A DNA stretch of 52,661 bases from Dimargaris cristalligena (taxonomy: Eukaryota > Kickxellomycota > Dimargaritomycetes > Dimargaritales > Dimargaritaceae). Both the position numbers and the translations under genes were made by a program. The stretch is taken from assembly GCA_027576995.1 (NCBI GenBank), contig JANBQC010000140.1:1-52661 (forward strand), in the 5' to 3' direction. The notes beneath the pieces were generated by a model. It searched no databases and was not told where the DNA came from. It was given only the letters and a program-made list of their open reading frames with translations. Below are positions 32,472 to 52,000 of the stretch, one piece after another (position 1 is the first letter of the stretch; every line of letters starts with the position of its first letter).

Positions 32472-34979
32472 TTAAGGGGACAAGGAGGCTACTGCACACT
32501 GGCGCGGAATCTTAATGTTCCAAATCTGACCGCTGGGACTCATTAATGACGTCTGAGCGATTTTGGAACTATCCACTCGTTTAGCAACCACGCCGTTGTC
32601 GACGATCATACTGCCCCCGAGGGACTGGGTGGGTGTGGCCAAGAGGGTCCAGTGCGGACCCAGGTGGAACGCGGCCACCCGTTCACCGTGCCGGGCCCGG
32701 TACACCTCGGCTATACCGCGTCGACTACTGTAGACGACGAGAAAGAGGACCTTACGGGGGTTAGGTTGGAGTAATTTCGACGTGCGACGCAGACGAATCG
32801 TGAAATTGGGCGAGGCATTGCCCGTGGGGGTCGTCGGGTTATTATAGTCCATTTGGCTGAGGGATGAGCGGCGCGCATAGGATACCTTGGTGGTTTGCGT
32901 GGGGGAAAGGGGGGACAGGAGCCGTTGGGCGTGGTTGTTGGTCGGGGGCAACGGCAGGGGGGCGGGGGGTGCTAAGCGCGCCGGGGAGGATGACAACGAA
33001 CTCGGGGGTTCGATAATGGTAGTCATGATGCGCGGCGATAAGGGGGCTGCCGGCGGGGGTTGGTCGGCGGAGGAATCCCCTGAACTGCCCGGAGTGGCCT
33101 GGTCGACTACTTCGGTACTTCCGTCGGAGTCCCCTTTCGAAGGAATGGCCCACGGGAGAGGAGGTCGAGGGGACCGGGTGCCCGTGGTTGGGAATTCGGC
33201 ACCGGGGGGTGGTGGTCCGTGGGGGGACGTAAACGGGGTGCCAATCATCGAACTAGGCCGACTCCGACCGACCGTCTGGGACGTCGGGCCGGTGGCCCAA
33301 CTGGCTTCCCGCAGGTCATTCTCATCGACAAGTGTTTCAATCCAGCCACACTGGCATTCACGTAGTCCCTTCCACAGACGAATAATTTCCAAGTTCAGCA
33401 GGTCAATCAACATCACTCGGCCGAAATTATCAGTCATCACACCTAGTTGGTATTCCGGCGGCGCCTGGACGATTTGGCTAATTTGTCGCTGACTATCGGC
33501 GATTTGGGCGACCATATTCAGCGCCGTCGGGGCGGTCCACCCGGCCGTGCCTTCTAGTTCTGCATCACCGGCCCCGTAGTCGTACGTGAGAAATTTACCC
33601 GCGGGGCCCATCATAGCCGGGTCGGGCATCGGCGGAGTATGCTCTTGGGGGACATCAGCAGCCCCACCCCACCAGTAATTGCGCGCTAGAGCGTACACCG
33701 CCGATGACATTTTCGAGGCAATGGTGGACGCCATTGATGTCATCGAATGGGATACTGACGTGGCCTTGTTGGTGCTGTACAGTCCCACCATGGGTGCACT
33801 GCCCACCGCCACGAACCGGGCGGTCGCGGTGAGGAGGGCCGGATTAAACGAGGCTACTTGGCCGGGGGAGGCGCCCTGCTGGTTGAGGAGGGTGCGCACC
33901 GCCGACGGGGGGTCGTGGTGGCGACCCCGCCAAGAGGGTCCGCAACTAATGACGTCCCGCATGACCTGGCGCTGGGGGTTCCCCAGCACGAATTTGCGGT
34001 AGCTAAACGACGACCCGGCGGACAAGGCCACGGGTTGGGTGAGCGCGGTACCCAGTGCCAAATTGGTGTTGGTATTACCAAGTTCGCCGATACAAATGCG
34101 AATGGCAATCCAGAGACTTTTGCCCAGAATCGTCACGACCTGTCCGTCCGCAAAGACCAGCAGTAGCTCGTCGTCGTCTTCTTCGATATGGCCGCCCATG
34201 GGTGGTCGACCATTGTTGGTGGTCGGCGAACCCGCCTGCGCGGTCGAACCGGGCGCCGGCGGCGCGTAAGTGTCCAAATGAATGGAGGACCGCCGGGAGG
34301 ACGGGGAACTGCCGGCCCGATACGATGCAGACCCACTGCGGTGTTTGGTAGTCGACGGGGAACGCCAGGTCTCAAACGGACTAGCCAAAAAGGGGTCGTC
34401 AGGCTTGGCCGGGCGGAATTTAATTTTAATTAAAGGCATCGAATGCAACCGCTGCGATATCAGCAAGTGACCGTCTTGGGAGAATATACGGAACCCCCCG
34501 TTGCTGTAGCCCACGGCTACGACCACGTCCGTCGGGCCCATGCGCCCCGACGGCTGGTAAAAGGGGAGACAGAATATCGCCGTAATATGCTCATCCGCCA
34601 ACTCGGGGCCGAAGCTGACGACTCGGAAGCCGTCCTGCACGAACCTGGAAGGGGGTTGGGTATTCAATAGGGCATACCGACCCTCCGTGGCGATAGCCAG
34701 GTATTCGGAACGGAAGGAGACGGACAACTTGGCCACGCGCAGATCGAAGGCCGGGCCGAACTGGGGTACCGTCTTGCGCGGCAAATCGCCCAGGGGACTG
34801 GTGGGTCGGCTGGCCGGGGCATCTAGGTCATCGGATGAATGCGTCGATTGGGTGGCGGGACTGAAAGGGGACAAAAGAAGAGCGTCGTCCAAACGGGGTA
34901 AATGGAGACGGTCGGCAACGGCGGCTAATGGCACGAGGCCCTCGAGAACGAGATGCACTTGGTCGGACCGTTGGGTCAT
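32472..34979 (-). CDS. RAB3GAP2: Rab3GAP regulatory (non-catalytic) subunit
   Basis: A single-exon gene of 835 residues. By family, this subunit pairs with the catalytic Rab3GAP1 to act on Rab3 or Rab18-type GTPases and in autophagy and ER traffic. Seen: the conserved N-terminal propeller-like region with LSVSFRSEYLAIATEGRYAL and VVVAVGYSNGGFRIFSQDGH; then LLVFADGQVVTILGKSLW; the strongly conserved LGVMTDNFGRVMLIDLLNLE and IIRLWKGLRECQCGWIE; a low-complexity Ser/Pro insert; and VLFLVVYSSRRGIAEVYRAR..VAAFHLGPHW. This is the RAB3GAP2 N-terminal domain in order. The animal protein has about 500 further C-terminal residues that are absent here; the frame ends cleanly, so this may be a short fungal form. 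Confidence 0.9.
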   Translation of the reverse strand: MTQRSDQVHLVLEGLVPLAAVADRLHLPRLDDALLLSPFSPATQSTHSSDDLDAPASRPTSPLGDLPRKTVPQFGPAFDLRVAKLSVSFRSEYLAIATEGRYALLNTQPPSRFVQDGFRVVSFGPELADEHITAIFCLPFYQPSGRMGPTDVVVAVGYSNGGFRIFSQDGHLLISQRLHSMPLIKIKFRPAKPDDPFLASPFETWRSPSTTKHRSGSASYRAGSSPSSRRSSIHLDTYAPPAPGSTAQAGSPTTNNGRPPMGGHIEEDDDELLLVFADGQVVTILGKSLWIAIRICIGELGNTNTNLALGTALTQPVALSAGSSFSYRKFVLGNPQRQVMRDVISCGPSWRGRHHDPPSAVRTLLNQQGASPGQVASFNPALLTATARFVAVGSAPMVGLYSTNKATSVSHSMTSMASTIASKMSSAVYALARNYWWGGAADVPQEHTPPMPDPAMMGPAGKFLTYDYGAGDAELEGTAGWTAPTALNMVAQIADSQRQISQIVQAPPEYQLGVMTDNFGRVMLIDLLNLEIIRLWKGLRECQCGWIETLVDENDLREASWATGPTSQTVGRSRPSSMIGTPFTSPHGPPPPGAEFPTTGTRSPRPPLPWAIPSKGDSDGSTEVVDQATPGSSGDSSADQPPPAAPLSPRIMTTIIEPPSSLSSSPARLAPPAPLPLPPTNNHAQRLLSPLSPTQTTKVSYARRSSLSQMDYNNPTTPTGNASPNFTIRLRRTSKLLQPNPRKVLFLVVYSSRRGIAEVYRARHGERVAAFHLGPHWTLLATPTQSLGGSMIVDNGVVAKRVDSSKIAQTSLMSPSGQIWNIKIPRQCAVASLSP

Positions 34980-35455: not shown

Positions 35456-37036
35456 TTAATACCTAGGGCGGTAAGTGCTCATATCATTGAGAGCGTTCGC
35501 ATTGGCCGCAACACCATTGTCTAACAGCTTGTTGAAACGCTTGCTCTTGGACTTATCATTCAGTACATTAATGTTGGCGAAGACGCCGTTATCTAGAAGC
35601 TTGGTGAAGCGCTTCGCCTTGGAGTGACCGTTGGCCGCATTGGCATTGACCAGGACACCGTTATCGAGCAACTTTTCGAACCGCTTGGCCTTGGAGTGGT
35701 CATTCAAGGCGTTGACATCGGCCTTGATGACGTTGTCGAGCAGCTTGGTGAAACGCTTTTCCATACGAAGTCCGCTCGAGATATTATCGACCGATTCCCC
35801 ACGACGGTTAACGTCATTGAGGGCGTTGAGGTCGACCTTGACCACATTATCGAGGAGCTTGGTAAAGTGATGGGTGACACGGGAGTGGTCATTGAGGGCA
35901 TTCATGTCGACCTTCAGTACATTGTCGAGCAACTTGGTGAACCGCTTGGCCTTGCTATGGTCATTCAGAGCGTTCACGTTGGCCAACACACCATTGTCGA
36001 GCAGCTTCTCAAAGCGCTTGTCCATAGCACCATGCTCGTCGAGAGCACGGAACTCGGACGCGATGCCGTTATCCAGCAGCCTGTCGTAACGCTTAGCCTT
36101 CGAGTGTTCGTTCAAAATGTGAATGTTAGCTAGCACACCGTTATCGAGGAGCTTGTCGAACCGCTTCGCCTTGGAATGGTCATTGACGGCATTCGCCTTA
36201 ACCAGGATCCCGTTGTCGAGCAACTTCTCAAAACGCTTGGCCTTGGAATGGTCATTCAGGACATTCAAGTGAACCTTAACTACATTGTCTAACAGTTTGT
36301 TGAAGCGCTTGGCCTTGCTACGGTCATTGAGGACGTTAGCATTGCCCAACACACCATTGTCCAGCAGCTTCTCAAAACGCTTGGCCTTCGAATGGTCGTC
36401 CAGGACATGGACGTTAGCGAGGATGCCATTGTCAAGCAACTTCTCAAAGCGGTTGGCCTTGGAATGATCATTCAGGAGGTTGACGTTGGCGAGGACACCG
36501 TTGTCCAGCAGCTTCTCGAAGCGCTTGGTCTTAGAGTGTTCGTTGAGGGCATTGGCATTCACCTTGACACCGTTATCGAGCAGCTTTTCGAACCGCTTGG
36601 CTTTGGAATGGTCATTCAGGGCATTGGCGTCGACCTTGATGACGTCGTTAAGCAACTTCTCAAACCGCTTGGCCTTGGAATGATCGTTTAGGAGGTTGAC
36701 GTTGGCGAGGACACCGTTATCAATTAGCTTCTCGAAACGTTTGCCCATGGATTGGTCATTGAGAGCGTTGACGCCGGCCTTGATGCCATTGTCGAGCAGC
36801 TTCTCAAAGCGCTTTACCTTGGAGTGATCATTCAGGACATTCACATTCGCGAGAACACCGTTATCCAGCAGCTTCTCGAAACGCTTGGCCTTGGAATGAT
36901 CATTGACGGCATTGGCATTCACCTTGATTCCGTTATCGAGCAACTTGTTGAAGCGAGGCTCGACGGCGGGCACGGTTCCGGCGGAGGCAGTGGCCGACAG
37001 TGCAATCAGAGCGAGAACGGAGATGGTGACCTTCAT
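35456..37036 (-). CDS. Secreted tandem-repeat precursor with Kex2 sites
   Basis: A single-exon gene of 526 residues. Residues 1-19 are a clear signal peptide (MKVTISVLALIALSATASA, small residue at the cut). After a short spacer ending EPR, residues 29-526 divide without remainder into 20 tandem repeats, mostly 24 residues: F-x-K-L-L-D-N-G, a variable hydrophobic/polar middle, then L-N-D-H-S-K-A-K-R. Seventeen of the 19 internal junctions end in Lys-Arg, the Kex2 cleavage signal. Repeats 13, 15, 16 and 20 are longer (25, 25, 38, 26). Cleavage would release about 22-residue amphipathic peptides with no cysteine. This is the design of fungal Kex2-processed repeat proteins (KEPs), which include Ustilago Rep1 and RiPP precursors. 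The peptide sequence is not one I recognise. No modifying enzyme lies nearby. Confidence 0.9.
   Translation of the reverse strand: MKVTISVLALIALSATASAGTVPAVEPRFNKLLDNGIKVNANAVNDHSKAKRFEKLLDNGVLANVNVLNDHSKVKRFEKLLDNGIKAGVNALNDQSMGKRFEKLIDNGVLANVNLLNDHSKAKRFEKLLNDVIKVDANALNDHSKAKRFEKLLDNGVKVNANALNEHSKTKRFEKLLDNGVLANVNLLNDHSKANRFEKLLDNGILANVHVLDDHSKAKRFEKLLDNGVLGNANVLNDRSKAKRFNKLLDNVVKVHLNVLNDHSKAKRFEKLLDNGILVKANAVNDHSKAKRFDKLLDNGVLANIHILNEHSKAKRYDRLLDNGIASEFRALDEHGAMDKRFEKLLDNGVLANVNALNDHSKAKRFTKLLDNVLKVDMNALNDHSRVTHHFTKLLDNVVKVDLNALNDVNRRGESVDNISSGLRMEKRFTKLLDNVIKADVNALNDHSKAKRFEKLLDNGVLVNANAANGHSKAKRFTKLLDNGVFANINVLNDKSKSKRFNKLLDNGVAANANALNDMSTYRPRY
35459..36952. repeat. 72-bp coding minisatellite (20 units)
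   Basis: The DNA underlying the 20 peptide repeats. The period is 72 bp, with units differing at many third positions and in the central codons. Unit 13 and unit 15 each carry one extra codon, and unit 16 carries a 14-codon insert. Divergence between units shows the array is old and selected, not a fresh slippage product. Confidence 0.9.
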
Positions 37037-43094: not shown

Positions 43095-46000
43095 TTAAGA
43101 TATCATGCTCGCCAAAAGAAAACTTTGTGACGAAGATTCTGGTTGATTAAAGTCGAACAGCGAATCTACGCTAAGTTCTGGGGGTGACAGGGATGCCAGT
43201 CGGTGCTTTTGGATAATCTTTTTTATCTCCTTTTTACGGGCCGCGAACGGAAGTCCAAAGCTAGGCATTCGAGCCTGGTAGATCTGTTGCTGGGCATGGA
43301 TGGCCGTGGCTCGAACGAGCTGGCCCAGTGACTGGTATCTCGCCAGCATCCCGTCCATAAGGGGGCCGAAGTTGGGAACCTGGTCAGTAATGGCAATCGG
43401 GATTTGAGAAATAGCTGTTAGTAATTGGTGTGCAGTGGCCATGTCACTAAGTAAACACACCATATTAAAAAGGTGACGGCGAGATGAACCACAAAATACC
43501 CTTTCCAAAGCGGCACATAGCCAAACCAATTTACCTTCTTGTCTTTATAGATCCGTATGCCGCACAGTCTTTCGTTGAGGGGGTTAATGACAATCTGGAC
43601 GTTGCCGAAGTCGCCCGATATGGTACCAGGTATAAAGTCCATATTATTTTCATTCCATACAATGTGGATATGGTCGTTTCCAACGTGTCGTTTCTATTAC
43701 ATGATGGGCAATTCAGTATCCGATTTTGGCAAAGTGTCCGGAAAGGTTAGGTTAGACAGGTCGAAGCCGAAGGCAGCGCCCAGTAAAGTACCCCCCCCCC
43801 CACTTCAGTCAGGGCATGAATATATGAAAAGTTGCTTTGCAACCCGGGGAGTAACACTTACCTTGCGAATCAATTGACTGTCGTTGGGGTCACTGGGAAT
43901 ACGAGTGGCGTCGTGGAAGATCATTTCTATCAGGGAGTTGCAGAAGTAAATGGCAGTATCCCCGTCATTACCATTGCGCTGAAGGCGGCCCGTGTATCCA
44001 GTGTGGGTGCGTAGGTTAACCTCCCAGCCTAAGGTCTTGAGGAATGTATTGTAGGCAGGGCTACCACCATGGTTGCCGAGAATAGAGGTTTCGTCAATCT
44101 GCTGTGATCCAACGTAGAGAACCGCGGCTTTGAAACACTCCCGTCTATATGGGAAATCCAATAATCCCGAGGCACATTCAGAAAATAAAGATTAGTAACC
44201 ATATATGTAATTATTTCCAATGCAATGTCTAGAAAAGTGACATCAAGCGATGGTGTGGATTAAGGCTCGGGTGAAAATGATCATCTAAATAAATCTAAAA
44301 CAGGCCAAAGAGGGCCACAGGAAACACACTATAATATACAGCTAATATATGATTATAAGGGGCAAGAGGTTGACTTACGGGTTAATGGTATCCAAGTGAC
44401 GCAGGTCTCGGTACAGCTGCTTCGATTTCTTCATAATCGTCCACCCCTTATTAGGTCCGGTTGTTATTCCACCGCTGCGTGCGGATTGGTCAAATGGGCC
44501 ACCGCCATTATTAGTTTGCGCTGCACCCGTATTAGGTTTCGAAGGCGCGTCCTCTTCGGGTGGTACGATGCGCTTATGTTGGTCCTCGTCAAGGGCAAAG
44601 AAGCTTTCCCTATTCTGCGGGCGCGGACAAACCGGGCGTGATTGGTCCCGGCTATTCTGACTCATGAGCTTGGATTCAAGCCGACTAAATTCCTGCATAT
44701 CCTTCTCTAAAGTGTCTCGCTCGCTGACGGATGGCGCAGGCGTGTTGATATCGGGCATCACGGGCCACGCAAACCCCGAGTTTTTACCCAGACTTATGGG
44801 TCGGGGGGCTGTTCGACGGAAATCCAGTGAGACGGTGGACGGTCGCCTAGTGCAACACTGGGGATTTTGGCCTATGGTCGATGCCCGGCGGAGCGCCTTA
44901 ACGTGACGCTCGGCTAGGTAGATGCGCTGTAGAAACTGGTATTTACCCGTGGAGTTGCGCACCAGTAGAAGCGGGTTGGATTCGTAAAGTTGGGTTCTGG
45001 AAAAGGTAACGACACTTTTGCTGTTAAGAGAGAGGAACGATAGCTCCTGGTCCTCGTCGCTATCGCCAGTCACTAGCGGCTCGGTGATTTCACTAATAAA
45101 ATACAAAAATACAGCCCATAATGAAATTCCAATGAATGGGTAACACACATTGTTCTCAAGTTGGATGTGGATAAGGAGTATGCCTAGCCCGTGGTGTTAT
45201 AGAGGGCGGCTGCTATACAATATATAGTTAGATTCGAAAGGGTAGTAGGCTCGCAATTCTCTATTTACCTATAAATATAGTCAACCCCGCGAATTGGCGG
45301 GAAGTGATCGTAGTGATTAAGAAGATGATCAATGACCCCTTCGACGGTGTCCTACATATCCAGCGGGCAATATGGACGTAGGCGTTTGCACCATGCGGGA
45401 ATCAAGACGAGTGTGGCAGATTGGAGGCGAGATAAAAGGTTAGTGGTCCGAAATATAGCATGTCTCTCTCCATGGTACCCATCGTAAATTCCACTCAAAA
45501 CTGGTTTGTAGACCCCGCATCAAGAACGTTGCATTCAGCGGAGGGGGTAGGGGCGGCCTAGCCGGGGAACTGGGGTTTGGGACTTACCTGAATCGAGTCG
45601 CTCCATTTAGTGACCTGGCTCTGATCCGCGATAGCTTCGGGTGTTGCCCGGGTTGAAGCCGACTGGGCGAATTTTTCGATCGTTTTCAAAGTAGACTTCT
45701 CGTTCTTCGTAATACTTTCATCAAACCTAATTTCGCTCACTAGGTGCTGGATCATGTGGTAGCTCTTGTGGGTCATGCGGACCATCGGCAAGCGCACCGC
45801 GTTCAACTCCTTGTCCACCAGAAAAGCGCGCTCGAGCGTATCGAACACCATGGTTTTGGTGGCCACCTGGTACAAGGTATCCGCGGGAAACCGCATCAGC
45901 GACTCCAACAAAGTCACCATTAGCCCGCATACCGAAACATGCCGGCCGGAGGTGGGTCGAATGACGAACCGATCGAGCTGGAGGTGAATGGCCCATAGCA

Positions 46001-49000
46001 ACAGGACGATATAGTCCCCCCGCATGGCCGGGTTGAGGTGCTGGATGGCCCCCGGGGTATTGATGATGACGAGGAGGGATTGGCGGGCCAATAGAGATAA
46101 CTCGTCATGGTCATCGCCCAAGTTAATAAGCAAGCGTATCAAGACGGCCCGGAGAATATCCTTTTTAACCTCGATATCGCCGGCCTGCATAACCGTAACC
46201 GTCATGAAACTGGACCCGTGGGTTAGTTCGCGGCCCACCGCCAGGATTTCTGAATCGGGAATATCCCCTCCTGGTATAACGGTCAAAACCGGGTGTAAGA
46301 GAATTGCCAGGATTTCTAGACGTAGGGTCATGCCATCCATCAGGTCCATGGGGGTGTCGTGAATACCCCCGAAGGTCAAATTGCCCTCCGGGCTCAGTTT
46401 AAGGGCCGGGCACTTGCGGTCCTGGTGAGCCTGAAGATGGACCAGCATACTAAATAGGATGCGGAAGGCCACCGTTCGTGAGACCAGGTTTAGACCTGAG
46501 TGGCGTTTCAGCATGGCTCGGATGCTGTAAAGGAAGGGGGTCACCAGCAGATCTACGTTGGGAAGTCCAGTGGAAAAAATGGGGTAGAGGTAAGAATAGA
46601 CGACATTGGCCATGGTCGGGTTGCGGGTGGCCAGAATATGAATGATCAAGTAATAGAAATGGGCGACGTAGTCTTCCGGAATCAATACCGGCTGGACCCG
46701 GCACATGAGTCGACACAGGGCGGCCAAAGCCCACGGGTAGGCGTCACAGCTGGCTAGGGTAGATGTCGAATTAAGATGGCCACCCCTTCCGCCTATCCCG
46801 TCCCGGCTGTAGTCCTGAGTGGCCCCTCGATGGATCGACGGTGGATCAGCAGCGGAAGGGATGGGACCTCGACCAAACTCATCGTTAATGCCAGCGGGGC
46901 CAGCGAGATAGTCCGACCCATTAATAAACTCCATGACCGGGGCCTGGGCGGGTGGGTGCTCACAGTTGACCCCCGGCGCAAAGTCCAGTTGGGGGGACTC
47001 CCATTTGAAGCACACTTCCATCAACGACGGCGCCAGGGCCCAGGGCGAATAGAGAAGTAGAATCTGCCTCAGCCGGGTGAAGTTAGACCCTGCCGGGGTT
47101 TCCAACAAATACTGAATGGGAGGATAGCTGTGGACGACCGCGCGGGGTAAGGCCTCCAGACTGATACCCCGGCTATACAGGAGGCCGCTCACTGAGGAGA
47201 AGGTTTCGCAAACCCGGATAATCCCACGCACCATCTGCACCAGGAGGTGGGCATAGCGGATTTCGTTGGGATGGCCGATGGCGGTTAATAGTTGGGACCA
47301 CATGTAAGTGGCTTCACTTTCGTACCAGTTTATGCCCTCGATCAACTTTTCTAGATAAACCAGCGAACTGACCCCCGTTTCCAACCAGGGACAGGGTTTA
47401 TCTAGGGTGCCCAGGACACACTTGCCCTGAACCAACCGGTTCGTGTATTTGGGGTGGGCGAATAGCTGGACGTCTTGGAGGAGATGCTCGCAGTAACTAT
47501 GCTCATTCCAGTCTTCCAGTGGGCCCTCTCCCCCGGCAATGCTACTAGCAGCGGTACTTCCGCCATTACCGCTGCCTCCTTCGCGCTCCTGTCCCGTTAA
47601 GAGAGTAGCGGCCAAGCTCGGGTCCAGGGTTCGAATGCCGTGGTGCTGGTTGGACTGGAACTGGTGGTGGGACAGTTCGCGACTCGCCGAGGCCCAGTAG
47701 GAGTGCACCGATGAACTCGACGACGAAGCCATGGTGTCCCCATCCGTTGGAATCCGTCCCAATCGGCCATCTATATCCTTATTAGTGCCGGGAAAGCTGG
47801 GGTTAAATAATTCTTCGTCGTTCACCAGGGTATTGGAAATCTGTAGCTGGCGCCGGAAGTATTTGGGGACGAGCCGCCGCTTATCCCGGTTGATGGCCGC
47901 CTTGAGATACGCTCCCCCGCGGGAGCGTAGTTTAGAGGGGCCCTTGGGTGCGGATCGCTCTTGCTCGATTTCGTCCACTGGTACGACCGGGGGTTGAGGT
48001 ACCGGTGGAGTCACGGCGGAATCCACCGCCAGGGGGATGGTCGGGTTAGCCGTGAACTCCCGCTTTTTGCGGCGAGGTCGGGGCGGCTGGGTGGTGTAGG
48101 CAAACGAGTGTTTGCGGGCCGGAGTACGATTGGGGACCAATGGGGCTGGGGCAGACGACGTAGGAGACATACCCGTTGGGGCCGGGGTTGAATAGGCCCG
48201 GGGACGATCCATTGAGGACCCGGTAAAAGGTAGAGCGGATCGCGAGGATTGGTGATGGACTGAGGGTTCGTCCTTGGGCAGAGAGGGAGTCGTTTCGGTC
48301 CGCTGGATCCGGCCGGAGCACGAACGGGAACGCCGCGGCGAGATCAAGGGAATCCTGCGATCCCCCAAGTGGGATACGGTCCACGAACGCGCCAGGGACG
48401 TCAGGACCTTATGACTACTTAAATCGAGCGAGGTTGGGGGGTTGGTAATGTCCGAATTACCACCGTTTTCCGACGACCCGGAATTGGTGGATAATTCGTC
48501 GTCAGGCAACTGGGGCATAGTCGGGAAGTGGGTGAAAAATTGCTGAGAGACCACCATCGCGATTCGACTAATGACCATACTCCAGAACCCCACCAGGTTC
48601 TTCCAGTTGGGGTTGCGGGATAAGGCCGTGGTAAACCGCCGCCACATGGCCGGGTTCTGGGAGCGGGATGAAATGACGCAAATGAATAGAGTTTCCACTA
48701 GTTGTCCAACCATGTCCTCCACAATCAGGGAAGGCTCCTGGGACCCAGTGGCACTCGATACCGATAAAGTGGAACTTTGCCGGTGGTGGTGGAGGCGGGG
48801 CATGGCAGCAGTGGGGGAAGGAGTGGGTGAGGGGGGACTGCTCGGTTCCGGACAGCTTATATGGAGCCCCGACGAATCAGTCGGCGCCCCGCCCCCACTT
48901 GATAGAGGCGGTTGAGATGACGAGGTTCCAGGCCCATGTTGATCCAATCCATACATCGTCCCGCCCGTCCGCGGGGGACTACTCATAGAGTGAGAGCCCG

Positions 49001-52000
49001 GTGGCGGGGGTGGTGGTTGCCGGTACACATGATTCATGGGCAATGTCTCATAGGTACCGATAAGTATGGCCATGAGGAGTTGCCAATTATCCTCGGTCAA
49101 AGGAAGAGGCTGTTCCGTGGCTAAGCTGCGCAAGAGATCGAATATCTTCTGACAGGAGGCCACGGTAGCGGGTGGGATCATGTCCCCTAGGGCAAACAGG
49201 CTCCGCAGGGGCTCGGCTAGGATTTGCAGTAGGGAGTTGACGTAACGGGAGCATAGTGGAGCCCACCATTTAGCCGAGTCGCTAGTTTCGTTGGGACACA
49301 TTTGGCCATGTTGATGGCCGGTCTGGGACGGGGGAGCGCCCGGGGTGGAGGCCAAAGTTGGTGTGGGTGGCTCGGAAGGAAGGGGCAGATTGGGGTTAGA
49401 CTGGGTGGCCACCCGAGTTGATGGGAGTTGGTAAAAGGGGGTGGGTTGGCCCATCATGGAGTGCCGCCGCCCCGCGGCCTGGCCAACCTCCCCGTAAATA
49501 GACCCGGCAGGATAATCTTCCTGGGCCAAATGGGCCAGGAATATGGGAATACCGCCAACACTCCCGAACAGCCAGTTGCGAATCACCCCGATGGCACCAC
49601 TGACTAGCTCGCTGTGCTCGGGTTTCCGAATAGGCAGCAGTAGCGATTGCCGCAGTATCTCGCAGAGGAGATCGAGGTTGTCCTCCTGGGCGAACAGCAC
49701 CTGGTTAACCGTAATGTAGGTGTACCAGGGGGTACCGTCGGGGTCATTGAAAGCCCAGGGGCGATGGGCCAACTCGGGGTGCCGCCGTACCTTGTTAACG
49801 AGATCGGCCGGGCGGGCATCCGGATGAACACCAGCCGGACGCGGGATACTACAATCCACCAGGAATTGCACCAGAGGCTTCAGCAAAATAGTGTGATAAT
49901 TGCCGAAACTCTTGGGAGCCGACGTCGTTTCGGAGGCACCCGACCGATGGGCCCAAGTGGGGAAGAGTTGGAAGAGACAGGCCTGTTTGAACATCTGGAA
50001 CATAAATTGGGCAGTTGTGAGCGCTTCGTGGCCCGTAATCCGCCACGGATAGCTCCCGTTCCAACCGTTCTCGTTTAGACTGGGTTCCGACACGGACGAC
50101 GGCGATTCGGCAAGGCTTTCGGGAATGATACCTATATGTTCGCCTGGAATCGCACCAGTGGTAGTTAGCGGAATTTTACGACCGTCCAACTCGACGGAGG
50201 CATTGGCCAGCATTTTGATATTACTTAGCACAAGCTGGGTCATGTCAAGAACGTCCGTCGCCGTGATGGGTTTGTTATACCGCGTGATAGGCCCAGCTGG
50301 TTGCTGCTGGGGGTCGTATTGGTGGTTGTCCGGTACGTGTTGATCCGGTTTAAAGTGCTGGGAGATGGCCCCAAACGTGCCGAATTTGCCACTAGTGGAT
50401 GAACCTTGACGAGAAACGGGTGTGATTTCGGGTAGTTCCCCGGATAGTTGGGTACCAGAGAGGGCCGGAAACGGGGAGGGATCGGATTCGGTCGGGCGGT
50501 CCCGGTGGGCTCTACTGGACCCCATGCCAGGGATTATGGAGTGGTATGGGCTGTCTTGACGGCCTAGGGAAGGAGGGGGGATAGGCTGACTGGTTCGGTT
50601 GCGGAGGCGAGGGTCAATCGAGGCACCCTTGCCTCCCACGGATAGGGCGAGCTCCGACAGGAAGATCCGTTGGATCAGGGCATCGCGGAACAGGAAAAAG
50701 GTTTGCTCGTGGTAGCTTCCCTGGAGGTTCATCCATTCGATTAGGAGGATAAATCCCTCCCGGACAATCTGTGGGTGGTTAAGGGGGTCTAGCAGCGAAG
50801 ACAGCATCCAAGCTGTATTTATAAGATACCCAAAATATAATAATTAGAAGTTGGTGGGCTTAGCAGAGGCTTAGTAGAGGCACTGCCAGCCATTAAATAT
50901 CATTGAATGGTGTCATCCCGAATAGGAAATCAAGTAATAAGTGATATCGACGCTTACTTACCCATTTTCTGACTGTGCCAGCCGGCACGAACCAACCCGG
51001 GAATATTGTAGAGTAGTTTGCGGAGAATGCCGAATATTCGCATGATGGCAATGATTTCCTTGGCGTTGGGGGAATCGGGGACTTCGGTCCGCCGCTGGAT
51101 TTTGTCGAGCTGATCCACAAATGTGTCGAATAGAACGGTGAACACAGTATCCGCATGGGTTTGGAAGAACCAAGTCTTCTCCGTCGATTCCACGCTGTCC
51201 AGGTAGCTGGTTAAGTGGGAGAAGCGCACACTGGATTTCTGGCGCTCGTCGAAGATGGGTTTGGTTTTCCGGTGGCTCTTATCGCTCTGGTCAGGGGCCG
51301 GGCCTAGGGGTGGGCCGGGGTAGACGGCCTGGGGAACCGGGTACGAGTCCCAGGGGGGCCCCAGGTGGGAGTGCGGTGGACCACTATTACCGGGGTGCAG
51401 CAGGGCCGCACTCCCCACCTGGGTGGGGTCGCTGACTTTACGGTAGGTCGGGTCGGGCGGGTAGCCCATGAAATTGGGGGGGCTGGGCCGCCAGGGGTGG
51501 GATAGATTGGATCCGGGTGGCATTTTACTCGGACTGGTTAAAGCGTGGGCCCTTGGGGGCGACTGGGTCGGTGTAAAGGCCCGCCGGGAACCATTGGATC
51601 TGGAGCGACTCGATGGGGATGTAAACGCGCTGGACCAACCGGCAAAGGGGTTGTTATGATGCTGATTTTGATGAGGCGGTGGCTGAGGTTGTGGTTGGCG
51701 GGAGGGGGGAACGGCTGCTGTTTCAAAGGGTGGTGGGACCGCCGGAACCGAGGCCGATGGAGTGTGCTTTCCCGCGAGGGAACGGGCGGCCGGTGGGGTG
51801 GGTTTAGAAATGGCCACCGGGGTAGCCGGACGGGAGAGTTCCTTACGGGCACTTGATACGCTGGCGGTAGTGGTATGGGATAAGGGGGGTAAGGTCTCGG
51901 ACGAAGGAGGAAGTTTGGGTAATAGGGGGGTCGTTGGCTCGGATACGGGCTCAGGAACCGCATTCTCTTCGAGGGAATGCTGCTGCTGCTTCTTCTTGCG

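Follow-up and report, generated by a model that had tools for sequence, protein, structure and literature searches.

KEP1 of Dimargaris cristalligena, a very probable Kex2-processed repeat protein and candidate precursor of a family of related peptides

Peptides derived from Kex2-processed repeat proteins (KEPs) are widespread in fungi, few of them have a known function and the early-diverging fungi have hardly been studied. Repellents of the Rep1 type are amphipathic peptides that form surface-active fibrils. As defined in one survey, a KEP has at least three repeats of at least eight residues between KR, KK, RK or RR, none longer than 100 residues, together with a repeat-score threshold of 0.6 (Umemura 2020; PMC7329392). 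In another, cutting at KR or RR gives at least four fragments and no less than 15% of the protein is repeat sequence (Le Marquer 2019; PMC6339444). A KEP should also carry an ER signal peptide and be free of membrane segments in its mature part. The former describes 2560 of its 7878 KEPs as having no known homologue, and the most KEPs per strain (11.56) in the Zoopagomycota (PMC7329392). KEP-type peptides have been detected in mushrooms, where six kep knockouts grown alone are described as having no phenotype (PMC9769878).

Dimargaris cristalligena, placed by the NCBI taxonomy in the Dimargaritales, Kickxellomycotina, is treated as an obligate mycoparasite (PMC6784888). Its candidate precursor KEP1 offers a clear mycoparasite case, whose repeats and paralogues are numerous enough to show how selection acts on individual repeats and on cutting sites.

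Organisation of KEP1 and its paralogues

The genome searched is the D. cristalligena assembly of 27.1 Mb in 779 contigs, and the window is the whole stretch of 52,661 nucleotides analysed on one of them (contig C140). KEP1 lies there as a single open frame in which a hydrophobic N-terminus is followed by a nine-residue pro-stretch and 20 repeat units (Table 1). Every unit begins F/Y-x-K/R-L-L/I-D/N, and 16 are exactly 24 residues long, two have 25, one has 38 and the last has 26. Lys-Arg occupies 17 of the 19 internal junctions, unit 7 closing instead with Asn-Arg and unit 15 with His-His; the 526-residue frame thus bears out the first-pass annotation, which had described some 24 residues repeated 20 times with Lys-Arg at these 17 junctions. 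In the unit consensus given there, F-x-K-L-L-D-N-G, the Gly at position 8 is not fixed (Gly in 15 units, Val in five). Residues 10-11 are LA, LV or LG in nine units and KV or KA in eight. The protein has no cysteine at all, in line with the cysteine-free peptides first proposed, and Tyr is confined to two of the 20 units (positions 317, 522 and 526). From its composition about 3.3 KR pairs would be expected, and it has 17. Its GC3 of 0.708 compares with 0.687 for RAB3GAP2 next to it. In Tandem Repeats Finder the array reaches 583 to 756 for periods of 72, 216 and 144, of which 144 and 216 are not clearly reflected in the lag statistics. On the plus strand an antisense frame of 178 codons between stops (35597-36133) runs through the array; it is probably a by-product of the codon make-up of the repeats.

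Table 1. Features of KEP1, in window coordinates
Feature	Position	Strand	Remarks
KEP1 precursor, 526 residues	35456..37036	-	whole frame including its stop codon; readable without an intron
Putative signal peptide, residues 1-19 (K2, then a hydrophobic run closing in A-S-A)	36980..37036	-	from hydropathy alone; cleavage point inferred; both paralogues start alike
Short pro-stretch, residues 20-28, ending Pro-Arg	36953..36979	-	Pro-Arg invariant, at the same place in KEP2 and KEP3
Units 1-7, 24 residues each	36449..36952	-	1-6 end Lys-Arg; 7 ends Asn-Arg (non-dibasic)
Units 8-12, 24 residues each	36089..36448	-	all end Lys-Arg
Unit 13, divergent, 25 residues	36014..36088	-	Tyr start; Lys-Arg end
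Unit 14, 24 residues	35942..36013	-	Lys-Arg end
Unit 15, 25 residues	35867..35941	-	His-His end (non-dibasic)
Unit 16, 38 residues	35753..35866	-	internal Arg-Arg (residues 411-412, 35801-35806); Lys-Arg end
Units 17-19, 24 residues each	35537..35752	-	Lys-Arg ends
Unit 20, C-terminal, 26 residues	35459..35536	-	no dibasic end

Searches of the genome with KEP1, KEP2 and KEP3 give at least three loci, namely KEP1 and two genes that lie near each other on a separate contig (C384). KEP2 has 293 residues and nine units, the last incomplete (for example FDKLLDNVIAANVEVANDHSQSRR), with Arg-Arg at all eight full junctions. KEP3 (L004:4836-5648, contig C384) has 270 residues and only two motif units. 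Among its several further dibasic segments is a piece of 68 residues after trimming that looks amphipathic when judged by eye, and a long run of repeats of the T-L-D-x-V-G type resembles an amphipathic helix. It may be the precursor of two unlike kinds of peptide or, alternatively, a precursor in decay. Its protein database entry is hypothetical protein H4R33_004863, found on two contigs. The three genes have a common N-terminal layout, and in each of them the hydropathy profile fits an ER signal peptide. For KEP1, mean Kyte-Doolittle hydropathy over residues 3-14 is 2.5, and past residue 28 the highest 19-residue mean is 0.37, a profile that predicts no membrane segment in the mature part. 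P and R fill invariant columns ahead of the first segment in all three. Kex2 is able to cut after Pro-Arg, and the first cut may fall at this non-dibasic pair.

Is the family known elsewhere? As the first-pass annotation had proposed, relatives were sought among known proteins, by scoring those database candidates within a length range that shared most exact 5-residue words with the query. With KEP1, 0 of 7999 scored candidates reached E 0.001, and a profile of the three paralogues, followed up to E 10, returned KEP3 itself as the only match among 7995 scored, results that under this word prefilter are not proof of absence elsewhere and that pass over genes which gene models may omit. The proteomes of Dimargaris, Tieghemiomyces and Dispira are at least partly in the database, since the METTL5-like gene of the window matched proteins of these genera and is 100% identical to one of D. 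cristalligena; the D. cristalligena METTL5-like protein is present as two gene models, with a gap of 43 residues as their sole difference. Other D. cristalligena proteins are thus in the database, yet neither KEP1 nor KEP2 came back as an annotated protein, and annotation in these fungi may miss repeat precursors. Five KEP1 motif strings are absent from the literature searched, as is the word Dimargaris from the main text of both KEP surveys (PMC6339444; PMC7329392), whose supplementary lists of thousands of KEPs may include KEP1. Within the proteins and literature searched the gene is therefore still undescribed, as first claimed, with KEP3 as the one relative found; the peptide family appears new to description, though the kind of gene is known.

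Domain searches gave candidates that were set aside. At E 0.001 eight Pfam families were listed for KEP1, three of them over their cut-offs (CC2D1A-B_DM14 at 61.5 bits, CsoSCA_C and IPPT), and all were rejected as summed weak repeat matches, as in none of the eight did a single stretch pass alone. Five similar rows for KEP2 stayed below the cut-offs. A solved-structure search with two-repeat units was likewise rejected (best E 0.24).

Divergence of the repeats and of the cutting sites

Among all 20 KEP1 units (190 pairs, which are not independent of one another) mean pS is 0.690 and mean pN 0.252, with pN below pS in 189 pairs. The 16 units ending in R (120 pairs) give 0.697 and 0.176, with pN below pS in every pair. 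By codon position, differences between units number 2378 at the third against 1295 and 1104 at the other two. Conservation is read here from the repeats and paralogues of one genome, because no relative outside the species was found.

The junction pair, formed by the last two codons ahead of each of the 19 following units, has a pN of 0.092 and a pS of 0.563 when units are left unselected by residue and all 19 next-unit starts are taken in. This is the lowest pN of the segments compared: likewise unselected, residues 1-7 give 0.115, residues 8-16 give 0.337 and the six codons leading up to the pair give 0.281. In the 16-unit set residues 23-24 give 0.027, an overstated conservation that is partly built in because those units were picked by their final Arg, and a fixed register over all 20 units puts the same residues at 0.310, since four units do not fit it. 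The 17 KR junctions are written with four codon pairs.

Where the 16 units share an amino acid, their codons differ in 48.4% of cases, close to the 49.7 +/- 0.9% reached after codon shuffling over the array, so that silent sites are near saturation. Silent and amino-acid distances retain a small, weak residual relation in KEP1 (Mantel r 0.193, p 0.038; KEP2 r 0.197, p 0.165). The eight full units of KEP2 (28 pairs) have a pS of 0.624 and a pN of 0.057, with pN below pS in all 28, and without any choice of units by their end pN is 0.000 both at residues 17-22 and at residues 23-24; the Arg-Arg junctions are written with five codon pairs. Silent mismatch in KEP2 is 0.420 against a shuffled 0.449 +/- 0.012, and falling somewhat below the shuffle it marks these repeats as a little less saturated. 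With silent sites near saturation, amino acids kept and the junction least changed, the KEP1 repeats are to be regarded as old rather than as recent copies. The units appear from their codons to have split long ago, to have escaped homogenisation and to be held by selection on both peptide and cutting site. Recent expansion or concerted copying, considered as the main history of the array, is rejected by the silent-site saturation.

Predicted peptides, their processing and rival readings

Cutting at KR and RR after residue 19 is predicted to give 19 fragments, all different, of which 18 carry the motif. The count of 18 dibasic sites and 19 fragments arises because unit 16 adds an Arg-Arg, and this unit would also yield one spacer peptide without the motif. 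Once terminal basic residues are trimmed, 13 fragments are 22 residues long, and the longest has 46. The earlier estimate of about 20 related 22-residue peptides thus stands as a family of 18 distinct predicted motif fragments, and fails in that only 13 of them are 22-mers. Net charge, His not counted, runs from -1 to +1 in the 13 trimmed 22-mers and from -3 to -2 in the nine KEP2 motif fragments. The 18 KEP1 fragments that lie behind a KR/RR cut start FE, FN, FT, FD, YD or GE, and none of them shows the XA/XP signature of Ste13 there.

The genome has one match to the proprotein-convertase P-domain, in a frame that also carries an S8 domain, both over the Pfam cut-offs, and the best solved relative of this frame is a kexin (E 1.2e-157). 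Its translation shows a membrane segment and what we take to be the Asp, His, Asn and Ser motifs of the active site. Carboxypeptidase family S10, presumably the family of Kex1, has four loci, all of them candidates for Kex1. In the window itself, Pfam recognises in the 17 other frames RAB3GAP2, RALGAPB, three Rap_GAP pieces, a PrmA/MTS-type methyltransferase (METTL5-like by protein search), one protein kinase, two RRM proteins and one tropomyosin-like piece, and seven frames gave nothing. The RalGAP-beta-like pieces (RALGAPB_N, Rap_GAP; minus strand, 43095-50843) are probably exons and stand on one side of KEP1; the RAB3GAP2-like gene (32472-34979) stands on the other. In line with the first claim that neighbouring tailoring genes are absent, neither UstYa (DUF3328) nor another recognised tailoring gene is found by Pfam among these 17 frames, a scan that genes broken by introns may escape. 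Whole-genome searches for the UstYa domain and for the STE2 and STE3 families gave no match; the control was equally empty for UstYa, and no control gave a signal for STE2 or STE3.

What form would the peptides take? In AlphaFold a stretch of two repeats comes out as a helix (pLDDT 67, 13 sequences), and the whole of KEP1 as a strand-rich, low-confidence model (mean pLDDT 36.9, three sequences). The two runs disagree and rest on alignments so thin that a poor model is likely in any case; as weak modelling evidence, they predict no stable whole-protein fold. Helical hydrophobic moments in KEP1 exceed those of column permutations at p about 0.02 (residues 1-10, 1-17 and 1-22) and those in KEP2 reach p 0.03 to 0.05, all uncorrected among 32 tests, and in the same table the lowest p at the strand angle is 0.09. 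These values weakly suggest helical amphipathy of the KEP1 peptides.

KEP1 is very probably a KEP. The Kex2-processed reading of the first-pass annotation gains support from junctions conserved across silent codon change, from the Arg-Arg at all eight full KEP2 junctions and from the genomic kexin. In the mechanism that best fits, the hydrophobic N-terminal segment would direct KEP1 into the secretory pathway, the encoded kexin would cleave after Lys-Arg and after the single Arg-Arg, and a Kex1-type carboxypeptidase, whose family is encoded, may trim the basic ends. Some 18 different motif peptides, including 13 22-mers that read F-x-K-L-L/I-D/N-N/D-(G/V)...S-(K/M)-x, would then be secreted uncyclised. 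Codon statistics from this one genome suggest that selection acting on every single peptide maintains the set, and not the overwriting of the others by one repeat. The complete account, KEP processing together with a secreted peptide set in a surface or host role, is judged likely.

A secreted repeat protein that stays uncut and assembles in wall or matrix, with the basic pairs as structural or charge features, is quite unlikely. Such a protein would agree with the two of 19 junctions that lack a dibasic pair and with the repeated strands of the whole-protein model; the confidence of that model is very low, however, and no other compared segment of KEP1 has changed as little as the junction pair, the exchange of KR for RR in KEP2 preserves a Kex2 site, basic pairs still flank the two isolated units of KEP3 and a kexin is encoded in the genome. 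That no annotated protein came back from the KEP1 search might hint at a tandem repeat that is non-coding or has no function and whose open frame arose by chance, yet 526 codons run without inner stops at 67-74% repeat matches, differences are in excess at third positions, pN lies below pS in all pairs but one and two paralogues have the same kind of start and motif, so that this reading is extremely unlikely. The layout also matches that of ustiloxin precursors, and KEP1 might be the precursor of a cyclic ribosomal peptide of the dikaritin type, its cut cores cross-linked by a tailoring enzyme. The known cyclisations are described as requiring Tyr, although it is present in just 65.6% of the repeats that lie beside cyclisation genes (PMC7329392), and its scarcity in KEP1 argues against a dikaritin. 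UstYa is not found in the 17 other window frames, and the genome search, with its blank control, is blank as well; a cyclic product is considered very unlikely.

Do the peptides act as one signal or as a mixture? Multiple copies of one ligand between KR sites, raising its dose as in ascomycete alpha-pheromones, would make KEP1 the precursor of a pheromone or other receptor signal; the length of 22 residues falls in the 9-24 class of alpha-type pheromones (PMC6339444), and the KEP2 peptides are highly uniform. The KEP1 fragments, however, are all different, residues 8-16 vary most among the 20 units and the Ste13 signature is absent from all 18 fragments that lie behind a cut, while the silence of STE2 and STE3 says little beside controls that were silent too. 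A pheromone or receptor signal is thus unlikely, though it keeps an appreciable share of the probability. That the array is diverse and carries no Ste13 signature speaks for a mixture with a surface or host-directed role rather than for one pheromone, and the choice of such a mixture over a specific receptor signal has about an even chance of being right. The most likely role would be that of a secreted mixture of mildly amphipathic peptides acting on the host fungus of the mycoparasite or at the surface of its hyphae, where a family of similar sequences may be tolerated or useful. More speculatively, and rather improbably, the lineage-specific family of three genes may supply a diverse secreted cocktail, with two intermixed classes of core and a diversity upheld by selection without homogenisation, that acts on the fungal host or marks self from host at the contact site. 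We know of no mycoparasite that uses KEPs against its host or for such marking.

Comparison with known systems

Dikaritin (ustiloxin) precursors have the same layout as KEP1, which differs from them in its two Tyr-containing units of 20 and in the lack of a recognised UstYa gene. With the alpha-pheromone precursors of ascomycetes KEP1 shares the multi-copy layout and the predicted secretion and KR cutting; it is unlike them in having no Ste13 signature and diverse rather than near-identical copies, and Ste2 was not found in a genome search whose control was also silent. KEP1 as predicted also resembles the Rep1 repellent precursor of Ustilago maydis, which is cut by Kex2 into similar but non-identical, uncyclised peptides (PMC7329392; PMC9769878). 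The surface role of Rep1 is the model for the surface reading of KEP1, a likeness of layout and not of compared sequences. If the KEP1 peptides are surface peptides, they would extend the Rep1 idea to a distant phylum; if they are real and host-directed, they would provide a defined set for testing how one fungus manipulates another.

Against the surveyed KEPs, KEP1 stands apart in a motif that matched nothing outside the D. cristalligena genome in the searches made, and in units that have diverged to saturation at silent sites. On the length and count terms of Umemura 2020 it has 18 dibasic sites and 13 trimmed 22-mers, with no trimmed fragment longer than 46 residues; on those of Le Marquer 2019 it has 19 fragments, and its repeats span residues 29-526 of 526. 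Like the KEPs of both surveys, KEP1 combines a hydrophobic N-terminus with related units set between KR or RR and no other accepted domain, and by these sequence features, with a putative signal peptide and predicted cutting, it falls within the KEP class as examined here.
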